A DNA stretch of 64,000 bases, from the NCBI GenBank assembly GCA_025360005.1, contig JANYDA010000042.1, positions 1 through 64,000 of the forward strand. Direction: 5' to 3'. The notes beneath the pieces were generated by a model. That model saw only the letters and a program-made list of their open reading frames with translations, was not told the origin of the DNA and searched no databases. Shown here piece after piece: positions 32,740 through 44,776 of this stretch. The stretch's first letter is position 1, and the number at the start of each line of letters is the position of its first letter. A program made the translations under genes and the position numbers. The stretch comes from Fibrobacteria bacterium (GTDB taxonomy: Bacteria > Fibrobacterota > Fibrobacteria > UBA11236).

Positions 32740-32777
32740 TTGAATCAGGTTAGAAAATAACTGTACATTTGTGCAGT
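32740..32777 (+). promoter_or_regulatory. SOS promoter/operator of dnaE2
   Basis: The 16-bp box CTGTACATTTGTGCAG (32761-32776) is an imperfect palindrome and matches the remembered Fibrobacter LexA motif TGC-N-C-N4-GTGCA at all but one fixed position. TTGAAT (32740-32745) and TACATT (32764-32769) form a -35/-10 pair with an 18-bp spacer. The -10 is inside the box and the ATG starts 2 bases after the box ends (one base between), predicting a leaderless, LexA-repressible transcript. Confidence 0.7.
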
Positions 32778-35700
32778 ATGCCGCACCCCTTCACCCATCT
32801 CCACGTCCACTCCGAATTCTCCCTGCTCTCGGGCGTCCCCAAGATCAAAGAGCTGGTCGCCCAGGCCAAATCGCTGGGCATGAAGTCCCTGGCCCTCACC
32901 GATACCAACCGCATGAGCGGCCTCATCCTCTTTTACAACGAATGCATCGCGCAAGATATCCATCCCATCCTGGGCGCGGAACTCAACGAGGCTTCCCGCC
33001 CGGGGGAAACCTTAGTGTTACTGGCCCGCGATGCCACCGGCTACGGGGACATCTGCGAACTCATCACCCGCCGCCAGAAGGATGGGGCCGCCTTCGCTTT
33101 CGCCAAGGCCTTCGCCCGGGAATGGCCCCATCTTATCCTGCTCACCGCCTTCCCGCGCCATCTCAAGACCCTGGCGGAAAGCCCCAACCGTCCGCATCTT
33201 TACGGAGAGCTGCTGCGCCATTCCGCCGAAGCGCGCGAACGAGGCAAAGGCATCGAGGCCCTCTGCCGGACCTGGAACCTGCCGGTGGCGGCCGCCGGCG
33301 ATTGCCGCTTTCTTATGCCGGCCGATTTTGAAGTGCATCGCATCCTGCGCGCCATCGATCTCAACTCCACCCTCTCGCGCCTAAAGCCCGGGGAAACCGC
33401 GCCCGAAGGCGCCTGGCTGCGCTCCGGGGAGCAGATGGCGGAGCTGTTCCATGACCGTCCGGACGCGTTGGAAAACACCGCCCGCATCGCGGCCGAGTGC
33501 GATGCGAAACTGGAACTGGGCAAATGGATCATGCCCAGGATCGATGTGCCGGGAGGCGATCCGGACAAGACGCTGGCCAGGCTCGCTTTGTCGGGCCTAT
33601 GCCGCAAGTACGGCAACACGCCCCAGTTCGAGGCCGCCCGCAAAGTCCAGGAAATGGAACTCGCCACCATCCGCAAGCTGGGCTACTCGTCCTATTTCCT
33701 AATGGTCAAGCAAGTGCGCGACTGGGCCAGCCGCACCCTGCGCGGCAAATACCGCCGCGCCCGCGACTGCAGCATCCTGCGCGGCAGCGGCGCCAACTCC
33801 ATCACCTTCTACAACCTGGGCGTATGCAATCTCGATCCCATCGCCCTCAAGCTCTATTTCCAACGCTTCCTCAACGAAGATCGTGCCGCCCCGCCCGATG
33901 CCGATCTCGATTTCGGCTGGGACGAGCGCGACCGCGCCCTGAAATGGATGGTCGATCATTTCGGACGGGACCGCGTGGCCATCACCTGCACCACCAATAC
34001 TTTCCGCGAACGCGCCGCCTTCCGGGAAACCGCCAAGGTGTTCGGCTACGCGGACGATCAGGTCACCGCCGTGCTGGACAGTTTTGAAACCAAGTCCCGC
34101 CGCCTGGACGACAATGAAATCCGCCGCATCCTGTCCTGGTCGCGGCGATTGCACGGCAAGCCGCGTTTCCTGGGCCAGCATCCCGGCGGCCTCATCATCA
34201 CCAACCAGCCCATCTGGCGCCATGTGGCTTGCGAGTGGAGCCGCCAAGGTAACTTGGATGGTACGGGGGAAGGAGCGGGCCGGCTTATCACCCAGGTGGA
34301 TATGCATAACGGCATCGACGATCTGGGTCTCATCAAATTCGATTTGCTGGGCAATGGATCGCTGTCGGTATTGCGCGACACTCTTTTCCAGATCGAGGAG
34401 CAAGGCCTGCCGGACCCGGAAGTATGGGACGTGCAGAAATGCTTCCGCGATCCCGCCATGCCCAGGATGATGGCGGAAAGCAGGACCCGCGGGGTGTTCT
34501 ACATCGAAAGCCCGGCGCAGATGCGCCTCAACCAAAGGGCCAAGGCGGAGACCTTCCCGGAAATAGTCATCACCTCCAGCCTCATCCGGCCCGCCGGCAC
34601 GGCCTATTGCAGAACCTTTGTGGAAAGGCACCGAAAGATGAAAGAGAACCAGCTTACCGGAAACATCCAGGATTGGGAATTCCTGCACCCTTCCCTGGAG
34701 CCGCTGTTGGAAGAAACCCATGATGTCTGCGCATTCCAGGAAGACGTGATCCGCATCTGCGCCGAGGTGGCGGGGCTTTCCTATAAACTGGCCGATCGCA
34801 TCCGCAAGATGATGAACAGCCAGCACGAGGGCGCGCCCGATGCGAGCGAATGGGGGGCGGTGCGGCGGCAGTTCATCGCCGGCTGCATGGATCCGCAGCG
34901 GCACCAACCCCCGTTCACCCCGCTTCAGGCCGAAGAGCTCTGGAAGCGCATCTCTTCCTTCACGGGCTTCTCCTTCTGCAAATCCCACAGCGCCAGCTAT
35001 GCGGAACTATCCTTCCAATGCGCCCATCTCAAGTCCCGCTACCCGGCCCAGTTCCTCTCTTCCGTCATCTCCAACCGCCACGGCTTCTATAACCGGGACG
35101 TATACCTGGACGAGGCTCGCCGCTGGGGCCTCAAGATCCTGCCGCTGGACGTCAACGCCTCCCGCCTGCAATATCACGGTCGCGACAATTGGATCCGCCC
35201 CGGCCTGATGCCCGTGCGCGATTGCCGCGAGGCCGCCCTCAAGGTGCTGATCCAGGAGCGCGAAGCAAATGGCCCCTTCAAGGATCTCGTCGATCTCTTG
35301 CAACGCGTGCCGCTCCACAAGCGCGAAGCCGAGAATCTGATCCTGGCCGGCGGCATGGGCTGCTTCGATCTGACCCAGCCGGAACTGCTTTACCTGCTGG
35401 ACGCGGCCTACGCCAAGATCCGCCCCGCCCAGGGCGATTTGTTCGCCGGCTTCGGGGACGCGTTCGGCGCGGGCGGACTGATCGCCTCCGCGGGCCCTGG
35501 TTCCCCGGCCGAGGCGGGCCGCCGCCAGGCGGGCATGCCCGCGGGTTTCAACCTGGCGGGCCTGCGCGATTATTCGCTGATGCAGAAATGCATGAACGAA
35601 CTGCGCATCCTGGGCTACGTGCTCTCCGCCAACCTGCTGGACGTGGTGGAAAACCATGCGCTGGCCCGCGACGCGGTGCGCGCCGCCGATCTGCGCCACC

Positions 35701-36089
35701 ACGTGGGCCGCCGCGTCAAGGTGATGGGCGTACCCGTAACGGACAGGTTACATCCGGTGGCCGGCACGCGCGGCAACCCGGAAGAACGGTACATGAAATT
35801 CGTGACTGTGGGCGACAATACCGGATACCTGGACATCATCTTCTGGCCCAAGCAATTGGAGAAATGGGGCGACACCCTGGCCGGGCAGGTTCCCTTCAGC
35901 GGCAACCTCCTGGAGGTGTGGGGCAAGGTAAGCGAGGATTGGGGCACCTTTTCCGTGGAAGCGGATTCGGTGCGCATCGCGCACTGGCTGCCCAACCAAG
36001 TGGACTTCGCCATCGCGTCGCGGCGGCTGGGCGAGGGGATGAGGAATTATCCGGCTTATGCGGATGGGGCTGGGTTGTTGGCGGCGTAG
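32778..36089 (+). CDS. dnaE2: Error-prone DNA polymerase DnaE2
   Basis: The 1103-residue C-family polymerase copies damaged DNA during SOS mutagenesis. The PHP domain opens with 'HLHVHSEFSLLSG'; the polymerase carboxylates are Asp374 and Asp376 in 'PPDADLDFGWDE' and Asp522 in 'LIKFDLLGNGSL'; 'GQHPGGLII' is also typical. A clamp-binding-like Gln-Gly-Asp-Leu-Phe lies at about 885, and an OB fold follows. ATG at 32778 is used because family proteins start at 'FTHLHVHS'; no Shine-Dalgarno precedes it, as the operator occupies that space. The partner imuB-like gene is about 2 kb downstream with the same operator. Confidence 0.95.
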   Translation: MPHPFTHLHVHSEFSLLSGVPKIKELVAQAKSLGMKSLALTDTNRMSGLILFYNECIAQDIHPILGAELNEASRPGETLVLLARDATGYGDICELITRRQKDGAAFAFAKAFAREWPHLILLTAFPRHLKTLAESPNRPHLYGELLRHSAEARERGKGIEALCRTWNLPVAAAGDCRFLMPADFEVHRILRAIDLNSTLSRLKPGETAPEGAWLRSGEQMAELFHDRPDALENTARIAAECDAKLELGKWIMPRIDVPGGDPDKTLARLALSGLCRKYGNTPQFEAARKVQEMELATIRKLGYSSYFLMVKQVRDWASRTLRGKYRRARDCSILRGSGANSITFYNLGVCNLDPIALKLYFQRFLNEDRAAPPDADLDFGWDERDRALKWMVDHFGRDRVAITCTTNTFRERAAFRETAKVFGYADDQVTAVLDSFETKSRRLDDNEIRRILSWSRRLHGKPRFLGQHPGGLIITNQPIWRHVACEWSRQGNLDGTGEGAGRLITQVDMHNGIDDLGLIKFDLLGNGSLSVLRDTLFQIEEQGLPDPEVWDVQKCFRDPAMPRMMAESRTRGVFYIESPAQMRLNQRAKAETFPEIVITSSLIRPAGTAYCRTFVERHRKMKENQLTGNIQDWEFLHPSLEPLLEETHDVCAFQEDVIRICAEVAGLSYKLADRIRKMMNSQHEGAPDASEWGAVRRQFIAGCMDPQRHQPPFTPLQAEELWKRISSFTGFSFCKSHSASYAELSFQCAHLKSRYPAQFLSSVISNRHGFYNRDVYLDEARRWGLKILPLDVNASRLQYHGRDNWIRPGLMPVRDCREAALKVLIQEREANGPFKDLVDLLQRVPLHKREAENLILAGGMGCFDLTQPELLYLLDAAYAKIRPAQGDLFAGFGDAFGAGGLIASAGPGSPAEAGRRQAGMPAGFNLAGLRDYSLMQKCMNELRILGYVLSANLLDVVENHALARDAVRAADLRHHVGRRVKVMGVPVTDRLHPVAGTRGNPEERYMKFVTVGDNTGYLDIIFWPKQLEKWGDTLAGQVPFSGNLLEVWGKVSEDWGTFSVEADSVRIAHWLPNQVDFAIASRRLGEGMRNYPAYADGAGLLAA

Positions 36090-38017: not shown

Positions 38018-38054
38018 TTGCTGGCTCGGATAAATAGCTATACATTTGAGCAGC
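38018..38054 (+). promoter_or_regulatory. SOS promoter/operator of the imuB-like gene
   Basis: Box CTATACATTTGAGCAG (38038-38053) is 14 of 16 identical to the dnaE2 box. TTGCTG (38018-38023) and TACATT (38041-38046) are spaced by 17 bp. Exactly one base separates the box from the ATG at 38055, the same geometry as at dnaE2 and the DUF72 gene. Confidence 0.65.
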
Positions 38055-39248
38055 ATGCATCAGCTTCCCTCCCCGTTGTTCCTGGCTTTGGAGGCGGAAG
38101 ATTTTCCGGCCCAAGCCATCCTCGCCTGGGACGGAACCTATCGGGATAAGCCTTTTGTGGTGGTGGATCAGGATCCGGAGAACCATAAGACCTTCGCGAT
38201 CGCCTGCTCGCCCGCTGCGCGCGCGCTGGGTATGCAGGCGGGCATGGCCATGGCGGCGATGCGCCGTCGTTGCAAGCGCGTGCTGCCGGTGTTCCGGAAC
38301 CTGTCCTGGGAAACGGCATTGGGCGAGGAGTTGCGCGCGCTCTGCCAGCGCTATACGCCGGAGTCCGTGGCGGCGGCCGGCCGCGCCGTGCTGGATATGA
38401 CAGGCACGCCCGCCGCGCGCGCCTTGCAACCGCAGGCATTGGCGGCCAAGCTGCGCCGGGACGTGCTCTATGCCACCGGTCTTACCGATGTGGCGGTGGG
38501 CGCCGCGGGTACGCGCCTCATGGCCAAGGTGATGGCGCGCCAGGCGCGGGGGCGGAACGCGGAAACCGGTTTCTGCCCCTTGGGCGCGGAAGCGGAAACC
38601 CTGGCGCCGCTGCCGCCCGCCTGCCTGCCCGGCCTTTCGCCGCAATGCCGCCAGCGCATTCTCCGCTATGCGCTGGTTTCCGTGGGTCAGATCCGCGGGC
38701 TGGGGCGTACGGCCCTGGCGGCTCGCTTCGGTGGGGAAGGGGAAAAGCTGTATACGCTCGCCTGCGGCCTGGATCTGGAAGAGATCCGCGTGGTTAACCT
38801 GAGCGTTACCTCGGAAACCGTTCTTAAGGAAGACATCAACGATGAAGACGGTCTCGATCGCAAGGTACGCCTCACGGCGGACAAGCTGGCGTTCCGGCTG
38901 CGGGAGGCGGGCCGCCAGGCCGATAAGCTGGTGATGACCATCCGCTATGCGGATGGAAAGGCCGCGCGCAAGACCGTGATCATCCGCCCCCGAACCGATG
39001 AGTTCCATATCCTGGCCGGCAAGGCGGGGGAAGCCTTCCGCGCTCTCTATCAACGCCGGGTGGCCTTGCGCTCCATCGCGCTGACGGTTCCCACGCCCAA
39101 GCAGGACAGCGGCCAAACGGATCTCTTAGCCTCCCTGGCCGATCACCGCCGGCAAGCGTTGGGGAATGCTTTGGCGAAAATCCGCGCCCGCTCCGGTTTC
39201 GGAATCATCCTGAGCGGCGCCAACGTAGAGGTTGGCGATGCGAAATGA
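38055..39248 (+). CDS. imuB: ImuB-like inactive Y-family DNA polymerase
   Basis: The 397-residue protein follows Y-family organisation: an N-terminal palm ('ACSPAARALGMQAGMAM'), 'VLDMTG' after the active-site strand, then a little-finger region ('KVRLTADKLAFRLREA'). Aligned by eye to DinB, the first catalytic Asp is Ala11 ('FLALEAEDF') and the Asp-Glu pair is Gly109-Arg110, so it cannot be an active polymerase; ImuB proteins show the same loss. Gln-Thr-Asp-Leu-Leu at about 354 fits a beta-clamp-binding motif. With DnaE2 it would form an SOS mutasome. No imuA is in the window. ATG at 38055 is used, immediately behind the operator. Confidence 0.75.
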   Translation: MHQLPSPLFLALEAEDFPAQAILAWDGTYRDKPFVVVDQDPENHKTFAIACSPAARALGMQAGMAMAAMRRRCKRVLPVFRNLSWETALGEELRALCQRYTPESVAAAGRAVLDMTGTPAARALQPQALAAKLRRDVLYATGLTDVAVGAAGTRLMAKVMARQARGRNAETGFCPLGAEAETLAPLPPACLPGLSPQCRQRILRYALVSVGQIRGLGRTALAARFGGEGEKLYTLACGLDLEEIRVVNLSVTSETVLKEDINDEDGLDRKVRLTADKLAFRLREAGRQADKLVMTIRYADGKAARKTVIIRPRTDEFHILAGKAGEAFRALYQRRVALRSIALTVPTPKQDSGQTDLLASLADHRRQALGNALAKIRARSGFGIILSGANVEVGDAK

Positions 39249-43694: not shown

Positions 43695-43732
43695 TTGATG
43701 GGATTGCCAAATATGCTGTACGTTTGTGCAGC
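43695..43732 (+). promoter_or_regulatory. SOS promoter/operator of the DUF72 gene
   Basis: Box CTGTACGTTTGTGCAG (43716-43731) is 15 of 16 identical to the dnaE2 box. TTGATG (43695-43700) and TACGTT (43719-43724) are spaced by 18 bp. One base separates the box from ATG 43733. Confidence 0.65.
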
Positions 43733-44776
43733 ATGAATGATTGGACCCCTGCCAAAGCCGCTCCTCTGCAGTCCCCGGAGCCGCGAACCCCCGCGCATGC
43801 CAGGGTATCTTCCATGTTACCTGGCGGCAGCGGGACCGCGCGCGGCGGAACCGGGTGGCGGCCGTTGGCGGTGCCCCCGGATCTTTCCCGCCTGGGCCTT
43901 CGCGTGGGGACGAGCGGTTACCGATTCCAGGATTGGGCGGGGCGTTTCTACGCCCCCGCCGCCTCCGGGTCGGTACGGGAAGGGGGTAACTCCGAAGTTT
44001 CGGAGGGAGGAGCGGCGGCAAGGTGGTTTCCCTTCTACCAACTTTATTTCTCCTTCCTGGAATTGTGCCATACCTTCCACCAGGAACCCCAGGCCAGGCA
44101 ATTCGCGGAGCTGGAGCGGCGCAGCAAGCCCGGCATGATGTTCTCCGTGAAGGTCCATAAGGACATCTCCCACAAAGGCGCATGGGACGCGGCGGAAGGC
44201 CGCGCGCTAATGCGCAAGCATGCGATGGCGGTAACGCCCTTGGCGGACGCGGGACGCTTCTATTCCTTCCTCATCCAATTGGACGAAGGCGTGGAGCGGG
44301 GCCGCAGGGTGCTGGACTACCTGCTGGAAACGGCTTCAGTAGCGGTGGGGGAGGGATTGGACGTGCACGTAGAGTTCCGCAACCGCACCTGGCACCAGGA
44401 GTCCGTGCTGCAATCGCTCAAGGACGCGGGCGTGGGCATTTGCAATACGGACCTGCCGGATCTGCTGCACGCCTTTCCCCTCAAAGCCTACGCCACCACG
44501 GGCAAGGCCTACGTGCGCTATTGCGGCCTCAACCTGGCGGGCTGGCTGGCATCCGGCCCGGAAGGGGGGAGCCAACGGCCGCAAGCCCGGAACGTCCGTT
44601 ATGATTATCTGTATTCCCGGGCGGAGCTGGAGAAGCGCGTGCGCGGGCAACTGCTGCTGCTGGAGAAGACCGGCGCGGTGGCGGCGGTATTCAACAACCA
44701 TGTGGGGGGCAAGGCGGCCATCAACGCCGTGCAGGCCATCCACCTGCTGGGCAGGCGGATGGCCGCGGAACCCTGA
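43733..44776 (+). CDS. DUF72 (YecE-like) family protein under SOS-type operator
   Basis: The 347-residue protein contains the DUF72 TIM-barrel pattern: 'LRVGTSGYRFQDWAGRFY', 'FSVKVHKDISH', 'DVHVEFRNRTWH', 'GVGICNTD', 'AYVRYCGLN' and 'VFNNHVGGKAAINA'. Residues 1-55 are a disordered Pro/Gly-rich extension. The function of DUF72 is unknown; an enzyme of nucleic-acid or cofactor repair is often suspected. Its promoter carries the same operator as dnaE2 and the imuB-like gene, with an identical one-base gap to the ATG, so it is probably a damage-inducible gene. Confidence 0.85.
   Translation: MNDWTPAKAAPLQSPEPRTPAHARVSSMLPGGSGTARGGTGWRPLAVPPDLSRLGLRVGTSGYRFQDWAGRFYAPAASGSVREGGNSEVSEGGAAARWFPFYQLYFSFLELCHTFHQEPQARQFAELERRSKPGMMFSVKVHKDISHKGAWDAAEGRALMRKHAMAVTPLADAGRFYSFLIQLDEGVERGRRVLDYLLETASVAVGEGLDVHVEFRNRTWHQESVLQSLKDAGVGICNTDLPDLLHAFPLKAYATTGKAYVRYCGLNLAGWLASGPEGGSQRPQARNVRYDYLYSRAELEKRVRGQLLLLEKTGAVAAVFNNHVGGKAAINAVQAIHLLGRRMAAEP

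Follow-up and report, generated by a model that had tools for sequence, protein, structure and literature searches.

An inactive Y-family polymerase homologue of Fibrobacterota as the likely organising subunit of a damage-inducible, ImuA-less DnaE2 mutasome with a recurrent DUF72 neighbour

DnaE2B-iPolY-RecA systems, described by Timinskas and colleagues in 2019 and 2026, combine DnaE2 with an inactive Y-family polymerase (iPolY) that carries a RecA N-terminal (RecA-NT) motif, and contain neither ImuA nor ImuB-C (PMC6511836, PMC12926913). Confident AlphaFold models of the DnaE2B-iPolY-RecA complex have been reported (PMC12926913). The RecA-NT motif of Mycobacterium tuberculosis ImuB is reported to mediate ImuA' binding (PMC11791113). 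DUF72 genes are enriched near polB2, and the TIM barrel of DUF72 has been likened to UV-damage endonuclease (PMC11791011). The main texts of PMC6511836 and PMC12926913 do not name Fibrobacterota, DUF72 is absent from the main texts of these two papers and of PMC3765255, and our literature search found no report that links DUF72 to iPolY or to a DnaE2 mutasome.

Here, we describe a probable system of this kind in a 64,000-nucleotide stretch of contig JANYDA010000042.1 (the window), which belongs to a Fibrobacterota metagenome-assembled genome of 4.98 Mb that is 98% complete and has Fibrobacteria MAGs as its nearest named relatives. The window holds a cassette in three pieces, each with its own operator:

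32761..32776, + strand: LexA-type operator CTGTACATTTGTGCAG, 1 nt before the dnaE2 ATG
32778..36089, + strand: dnaE2 (DnaE2B-like), 1103 aa, polymerase aspartates intact, PHP site altered
35430..35444, + strand: clamp-type motif QGDLF inside DnaE2, present in the window's genus
38038..38053, + strand: LexA-type operator CTATACATTTGAGCAG, 1 nt before the iPolY ATG
38055..39248, + strand: iPolY, catalytically inactive Y-family polymerase homologue, 397 aa
43716..43731, + strand: LexA-type operator CTGTACGTTTGTGCAG, 1 nt before the DUF72 ATG
43733..44776, + strand: DUF72 TIM-barrel-family protein (Pfam DUF72, 7e-32), third member of the split cassette, adjoining iPolY in relatives

The iPolY reading frame is unbroken and encodes a Y-family fold. 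Pfam IMS (E 1e-19) and IMS_C (5.5e-13) match above their curated cut-offs, the latter bearing out the little-finger domain named in the initial annotation of this DNA, and hhalign aligns the protein to DinB with an E-value of 5e-31 over 377 columns. Its score lies far under all NCBIfam polymerase IV and V cut-offs, as expected of a diverged, inactive member. The sole further Y-family gene in the genome encodes a DinB whose active site is intact. A phylum-wide search identified 23 iPolY orthologues in 22 of 168 Fibrobacterota genomes, a count that leaves out a second match in G093 (L123), which is a normal DinB relative. A plasmid search with the window iPolY as query gave no match, and a sequence search of the PDB found no ImuB structure. 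An AlphaFold2 monomer model of iPolY, built from three sequences, reached a pLDDT of 40 and is unusable.

The register of iPolY against active Fibrobacterota DinBs is the same in MAFFT, in hhalign with two profiles and in Pfam coordinates. It pairs LALEAEDF of iPolY with FHVDMDAF of the DinBs. The second Asp in DMD (Pfam profile position 4) falls at residue 15, which places the first catalytic Asp at Glu13. The Ala11 proposed earlier for this position is thus off by two residues; the assignment of the invariant Asp-Glu pair to Gly109-Arg110 is reproduced by MAFFT and by the profile alignments.

38091..38093, + strand: codon of Glu13, aligned with the first catalytic Asp (E. coli DinB D8) in the MAFFT, hhalign and Pfam register
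38379..38384, + strand: codons of Gly109-Arg110, aligned with the catalytic Asp-Glu pair

In place of the D, D and E of an active Y-family polymerase, iPolY has E13, G109 and R110. The loss of catalytic carboxylates therefore stands for two of the three positions, now Gly and Arg, and is qualified at the first, where an acid remains. The triad is missing from all 23 Fibrobacterota iPolYs in the alignment. Its first position is Glu in all six members of the window's genus and T, S, W, H, R, C, F, Y or N elsewhere in the phylum, with no acid in any of the 17 orthologues outside the genus. The Asp-Glu pair is never DE in the 23 proteins, and the second and third positions are Gly or Ser and Arg throughout the genus. 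Three orthologues (G012, G014 and G055) retain just the first Asp of the pair, suggesting that the active site eroded along different routes.

A Glu13 shared by all six genus members could point to an altered polymerase that stays active by using this residue and other carboxylates. The genus-wide Gly/Ser and Arg at the second and third positions argue against such an enzyme, as do the other genera, which lack an acid at the first, and the proline at the steric-gate position of the window's protein; we regard it as highly improbable. Loss of the catalytic residues, together with an operon that is broken up in the window's genus, might also be expected of a dinB relic in the course of decay. 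This is barely credible for a gene with a dN/dS of about 0.2 in two comparisons, whose operator, length, clamp motif and tail are retained across relatives and whose genome encodes a separate, active-looking DinB. Taken with the absence of the triad from every orthologue, the dN/dS indicates that iPolY is a maintained protein.

Two further elements characterize the C-terminal part of iPolY:

39114..39128, + strand: clamp-binding-type motif QTDLL (QxDLF in relatives), conserved in the alignment
39147..39218, + strand: RecA-N-terminus-like tail RRQALGNALAKIRARSGFGIILSG, a gap-free block in 24 iPolYs with weak scores against RecA

Nearly all iPolY orthologues share a Q-x-x-LF-type motif, and the window version, GQTDLL, contains the clamp-binding-like Gln-Thr-Asp-Leu-Leu first noticed by eye. 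The RecA-N-terminus-like block comes after it, and its resemblance is clear on visual inspection. A profile of this tail finds its best place at the RecA N-terminal motif in four of five Fibrobacterota RecAs, with modest scores, and its score on the genome's own RecA is not above that on shuffled sequences; the placement thus favours the motif, whereas the scores do not establish it. iPolY ends right after this motif, the point beyond which an ImuB would continue into ImuB-C. DUF6504, which we take to be the Pfam family corresponding to ImuB-C, was found neither in the window's genome nor in 20 related genomes, with a positive Caulobacter control. Searches for ImuA in the 98% complete genome with NF033429, PF00154 and a Cupriavidus ImuA protein returned RecA only or nothing, the NCBIfam model NF033429 picking up RecA below its cut-off and having no control match above it; the imuA or RecA-like ImuA' genes envisaged in the initial annotation were not among the matches.

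DnaE2 retains its polymerase aspartates (PDADLD and KFDLL). In a tree, it groups with the DnaE2 of Desulfosarcina (support 1.00) and Emticicia (0.68), apart from the imuAB-linked DnaE2A of Cupriavidus; a Streptomyces plasmid DnaE2 falls with DnaE2A. The presence of dnaE2 follows that of iPolY in a 21-genome set, in which genomes without iPolY also lack dnaE2, except G010 (79% complete), where a window-type DnaE2 occurs without a detected iPolY. The DnaE2 of the window's genus has a clamp-type motif of its own and may therefore reach the clamp without iPolY. This QGDLF is missing or altered in sister genera.

These observations bear on whether the window protein is a divergent but genuine ImuB of an ImuA-ImuB-DnaE2 cassette whose imuA was lost or missed. 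Such an origin would account for the dead Y-family fold, the clamp motif and the co-regulation with DnaE2. It is nevertheless improbable, and already largely refuted, given the missing ImuB-C and DUF6504, the ImuA searches and the position of DnaE2 in the tree, which together indicate that the protein is not ImuB. The ImuB-like condition put forward earlier is thus reasonable as a function for a dead Y-family protein, but does not extend to membership of the ImuB family. The short length relative to typical ImuB and the lack of imuA, also pointed out then, match the published DnaE2B-iPolY-RecA type. With an inactive PolY linked to DnaE2, and neither ImuA nor ImuB detected, the window system fits this ImuA-less type as judged from its sequence.

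The operator previously seen to be common to iPolY and dnaE2 is present at both (starting at 38038 and 32761), and DUF72 is a third gene with the same site. The window contains four operator sites at up to 3 mismatches, compared with 0.17 expected. Two of the six best matches genome-wide lie in the window, and another, with one mismatch, lies upstream of recA; lexA itself has no close operator match. Through the operator shared with recA, the three genes are predicted members of a LexA regulon. Except for one base, the window operator fits TGCNCN4GTGCA, presumably the Fibrobacter LexA box. In relatives, the operator is found at dnaE2, at the DUF72 orthologue, and at those iPolY genes that form a unit of their own. 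All five DUF72 orthologues in the genus carry it, and none of their paralogues do. The operators abut the start codons (operator plus ATG spans 32761-32780, 38038-38057 and 43716-43735) and leave no room for a leader, suggesting that the three mRNAs may be leaderless. An operator-like palindrome also separates a dprA-like gene from a divergently oriented mazG-like gene (L063, G000:C17:134664).

In relatives, the cassette order is lexA-dnaE2-iPolY-DUF72. Seven loci have the order dnaE2-iPolY-DUF72, termed type 1 (G094, G093, two copies in G062, G167, G092 and G091), with lexA just upstream in the four whose DNA extends far enough. Type 2, lexA-DUF72-iPolY(-dnaE), is represented by another five genomes and by a Desulfosarcina plasmid, where DUF72 lies between lexA and iPolY; type-2 loci have a different DUF72 and DnaE subtype, and the iPolYs of the five genomes have N and G-H at the catalytic positions. 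The dnaE2 gene directly adjoins iPolY in G001, G006, G009, G012 and G014 and in all seven type-1 loci. Within the window's genus, the two are adjacent in G001 and otherwise separated by unrelated genes, with an operator for each fragment. The initial annotation's statement that the gene is not in a cassette thus holds for the window strain and its closest relatives, but not for other relatives, which hold an intact dnaE2-iPolY(-DUF72) operon.

DUF72 adjoins iPolY in 12 of the 23 Fibrobacterota loci. For five more loci the genome encodes it elsewhere, preceded by the same operator and, in three of them, at a distance of 4 to 9 kb, and it is missing in six cases (G001, G006, G009, which has a generic paralogue only, G012, G014 and G055). 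Cassette DUF72s retain most of the polar residues conserved by the family and in this respect look like working members. DUF72 also lies next to canonical imuA-imuB-dnaE2 genes on four Burkholderiales plasmids (L125, 6022-6936; L129, 4995-5903; L135, 5995-6921; L136, 6001-6894); the carriers are Paraburkholderia sp. D15, P. acidisoli, Caballeronia grimmiae and Caballeronia SBC2. In L136, DUF72 is divergent relative to imuA-imuB-dnaE2. Together with the Desulfosarcina plasmid, these make five of 15 inspected plasmid DUF72 matches that stand beside dnaE2, iPolY or imuA, a fraction that is not a rate since the matches were picked partly for the label of one of them. On two Paraburkholderia plasmids, DUF72 (L128, 4998-5894; L134, 5998-6894) lies near genes for Ku (and ligase D), a further setting of DNA repair.

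DUF72 may, as a tentative proposal, be a general functional partner of DnaE2 mutasomes that joined the dnaE2-iPolY, lexA-DUF72-iPolY-dnaE and imuA-imuB-dnaE2 cassettes independently. It could, for instance, be a TIM-barrel enzyme resembling UV endonuclease, with the lesion or the primer end as its substrate. That DUF72 recurs next to DnaE2 or iPolY in three phyla and in three kinds of gene arrangement, and that the operator marks precisely the cassette paralogue, speaks against a co-regulated neighbour that has no role in the mutasome. Such a neighbour is also quite conceivable, given the six iPolY loci or genomes without DUF72, the many genomes with DUF72 but no dnaE2, and the Ku and ligase D associations on other plasmids.

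For iPolY, the evidence points to a non-catalytic organising subunit of a damage-inducible, ImuA-less DnaE2 mutasome, an assignment that we consider likely. Good support for a catalytically dead Y-family protein that serves DnaE2 as a scaffold, in line with the initial annotation, comes from the loss of the D103-E104 pair, the retained interaction motifs, the purifying selection on the gene, its occurrence together with dnaE2 and the operator that the two share. The points against it are the monomer pLDDT, the tail score on the genome's own RecA, the acidic Glu13, the clamp motif in DnaE2, and G010. The proposed mechanism builds on the loss of the iPolY triad, the DnaE2 polymerase aspartates, the motifs, operators, gene order and co-occurrence, and the undetected ImuA and ImuB-C; from these we infer its protein–protein contacts, LexA binding and any DUF72 activity. 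Firstly, LexA would repress dnaE2, iPolY and DUF72 through near-identical operators abutting their start codons, and these sites suggest that the three proteins are made together after damage. Secondly, iPolY would use QTDLL to bind the beta clamp and its C-terminal RecA-N-terminus-like motif to bind RecA. Finally, iPolY would position DnaE2, which is probably proofreading-deficient and would supply the polymerase activity, while DUF72 is probably a co-induced accessory acting on or near the lesion. iPolY is thus probably the platform on which an error-prone polymerase, produced in response to DNA damage, docks.

These results extend ImuA-less DnaE2 mutasomes to a phylum unnamed in the main texts of the published surveys, and the 23 orthologues document the decay of an active site by different routes. 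DUF72 is a very widespread family without known function, and its repeated link to DnaE2 mutasomes offers a concrete candidate role in damage-induced mutagenesis. The steady genetic link between DUF72 and iPolY appears to be unreported, whereas the protein class itself has already been described.

Compared with known systems, the window's is closest to DnaE2B-iPolY-RecA (the Streptomyces DinB2 and G. bemidjiensis DinB2 groups), in which an inactive Y-family protein with a clamp motif likewise accompanies DnaE2 and ImuA and ImuB-C are likewise absent; a RecA-NT-like motif, weakly scoring in the window's protein, is a further probable similarity. It differs in its split operon, with one operator per piece, and in having DUF72 as a regular member. 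The ImuA-ImuB-DnaE2 mutasome also pairs a dead Y-family scaffold with a damage-inducible DnaE2, whereas the window system is without ImuA and ImuB-C and has a shorter protein and a DnaE2 of another branch. In the Bacteroidota DnaE2B-PolY-RecA system of an Emticicia plasmid (L056), PolY lies directly upstream of a related DnaE2; unlike the window iPolY, it retains D and DE and so looks active. On a Thermomicrobium megaplasmid (L057, 1706-7171), three successive genes encode a RecA-family protein, a strongly reduced Y-family protein and DnaE2. PolB2 loci are also enriched in DUF72 near an error-prone polymerase (PMC11791011), but, unlike the window, they have a B-family polymerase and neither a Y-family scaffold nor DnaE2. 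The window iPolY is a new member of the published class, and its recurrent DUF72 partner goes beyond that class.
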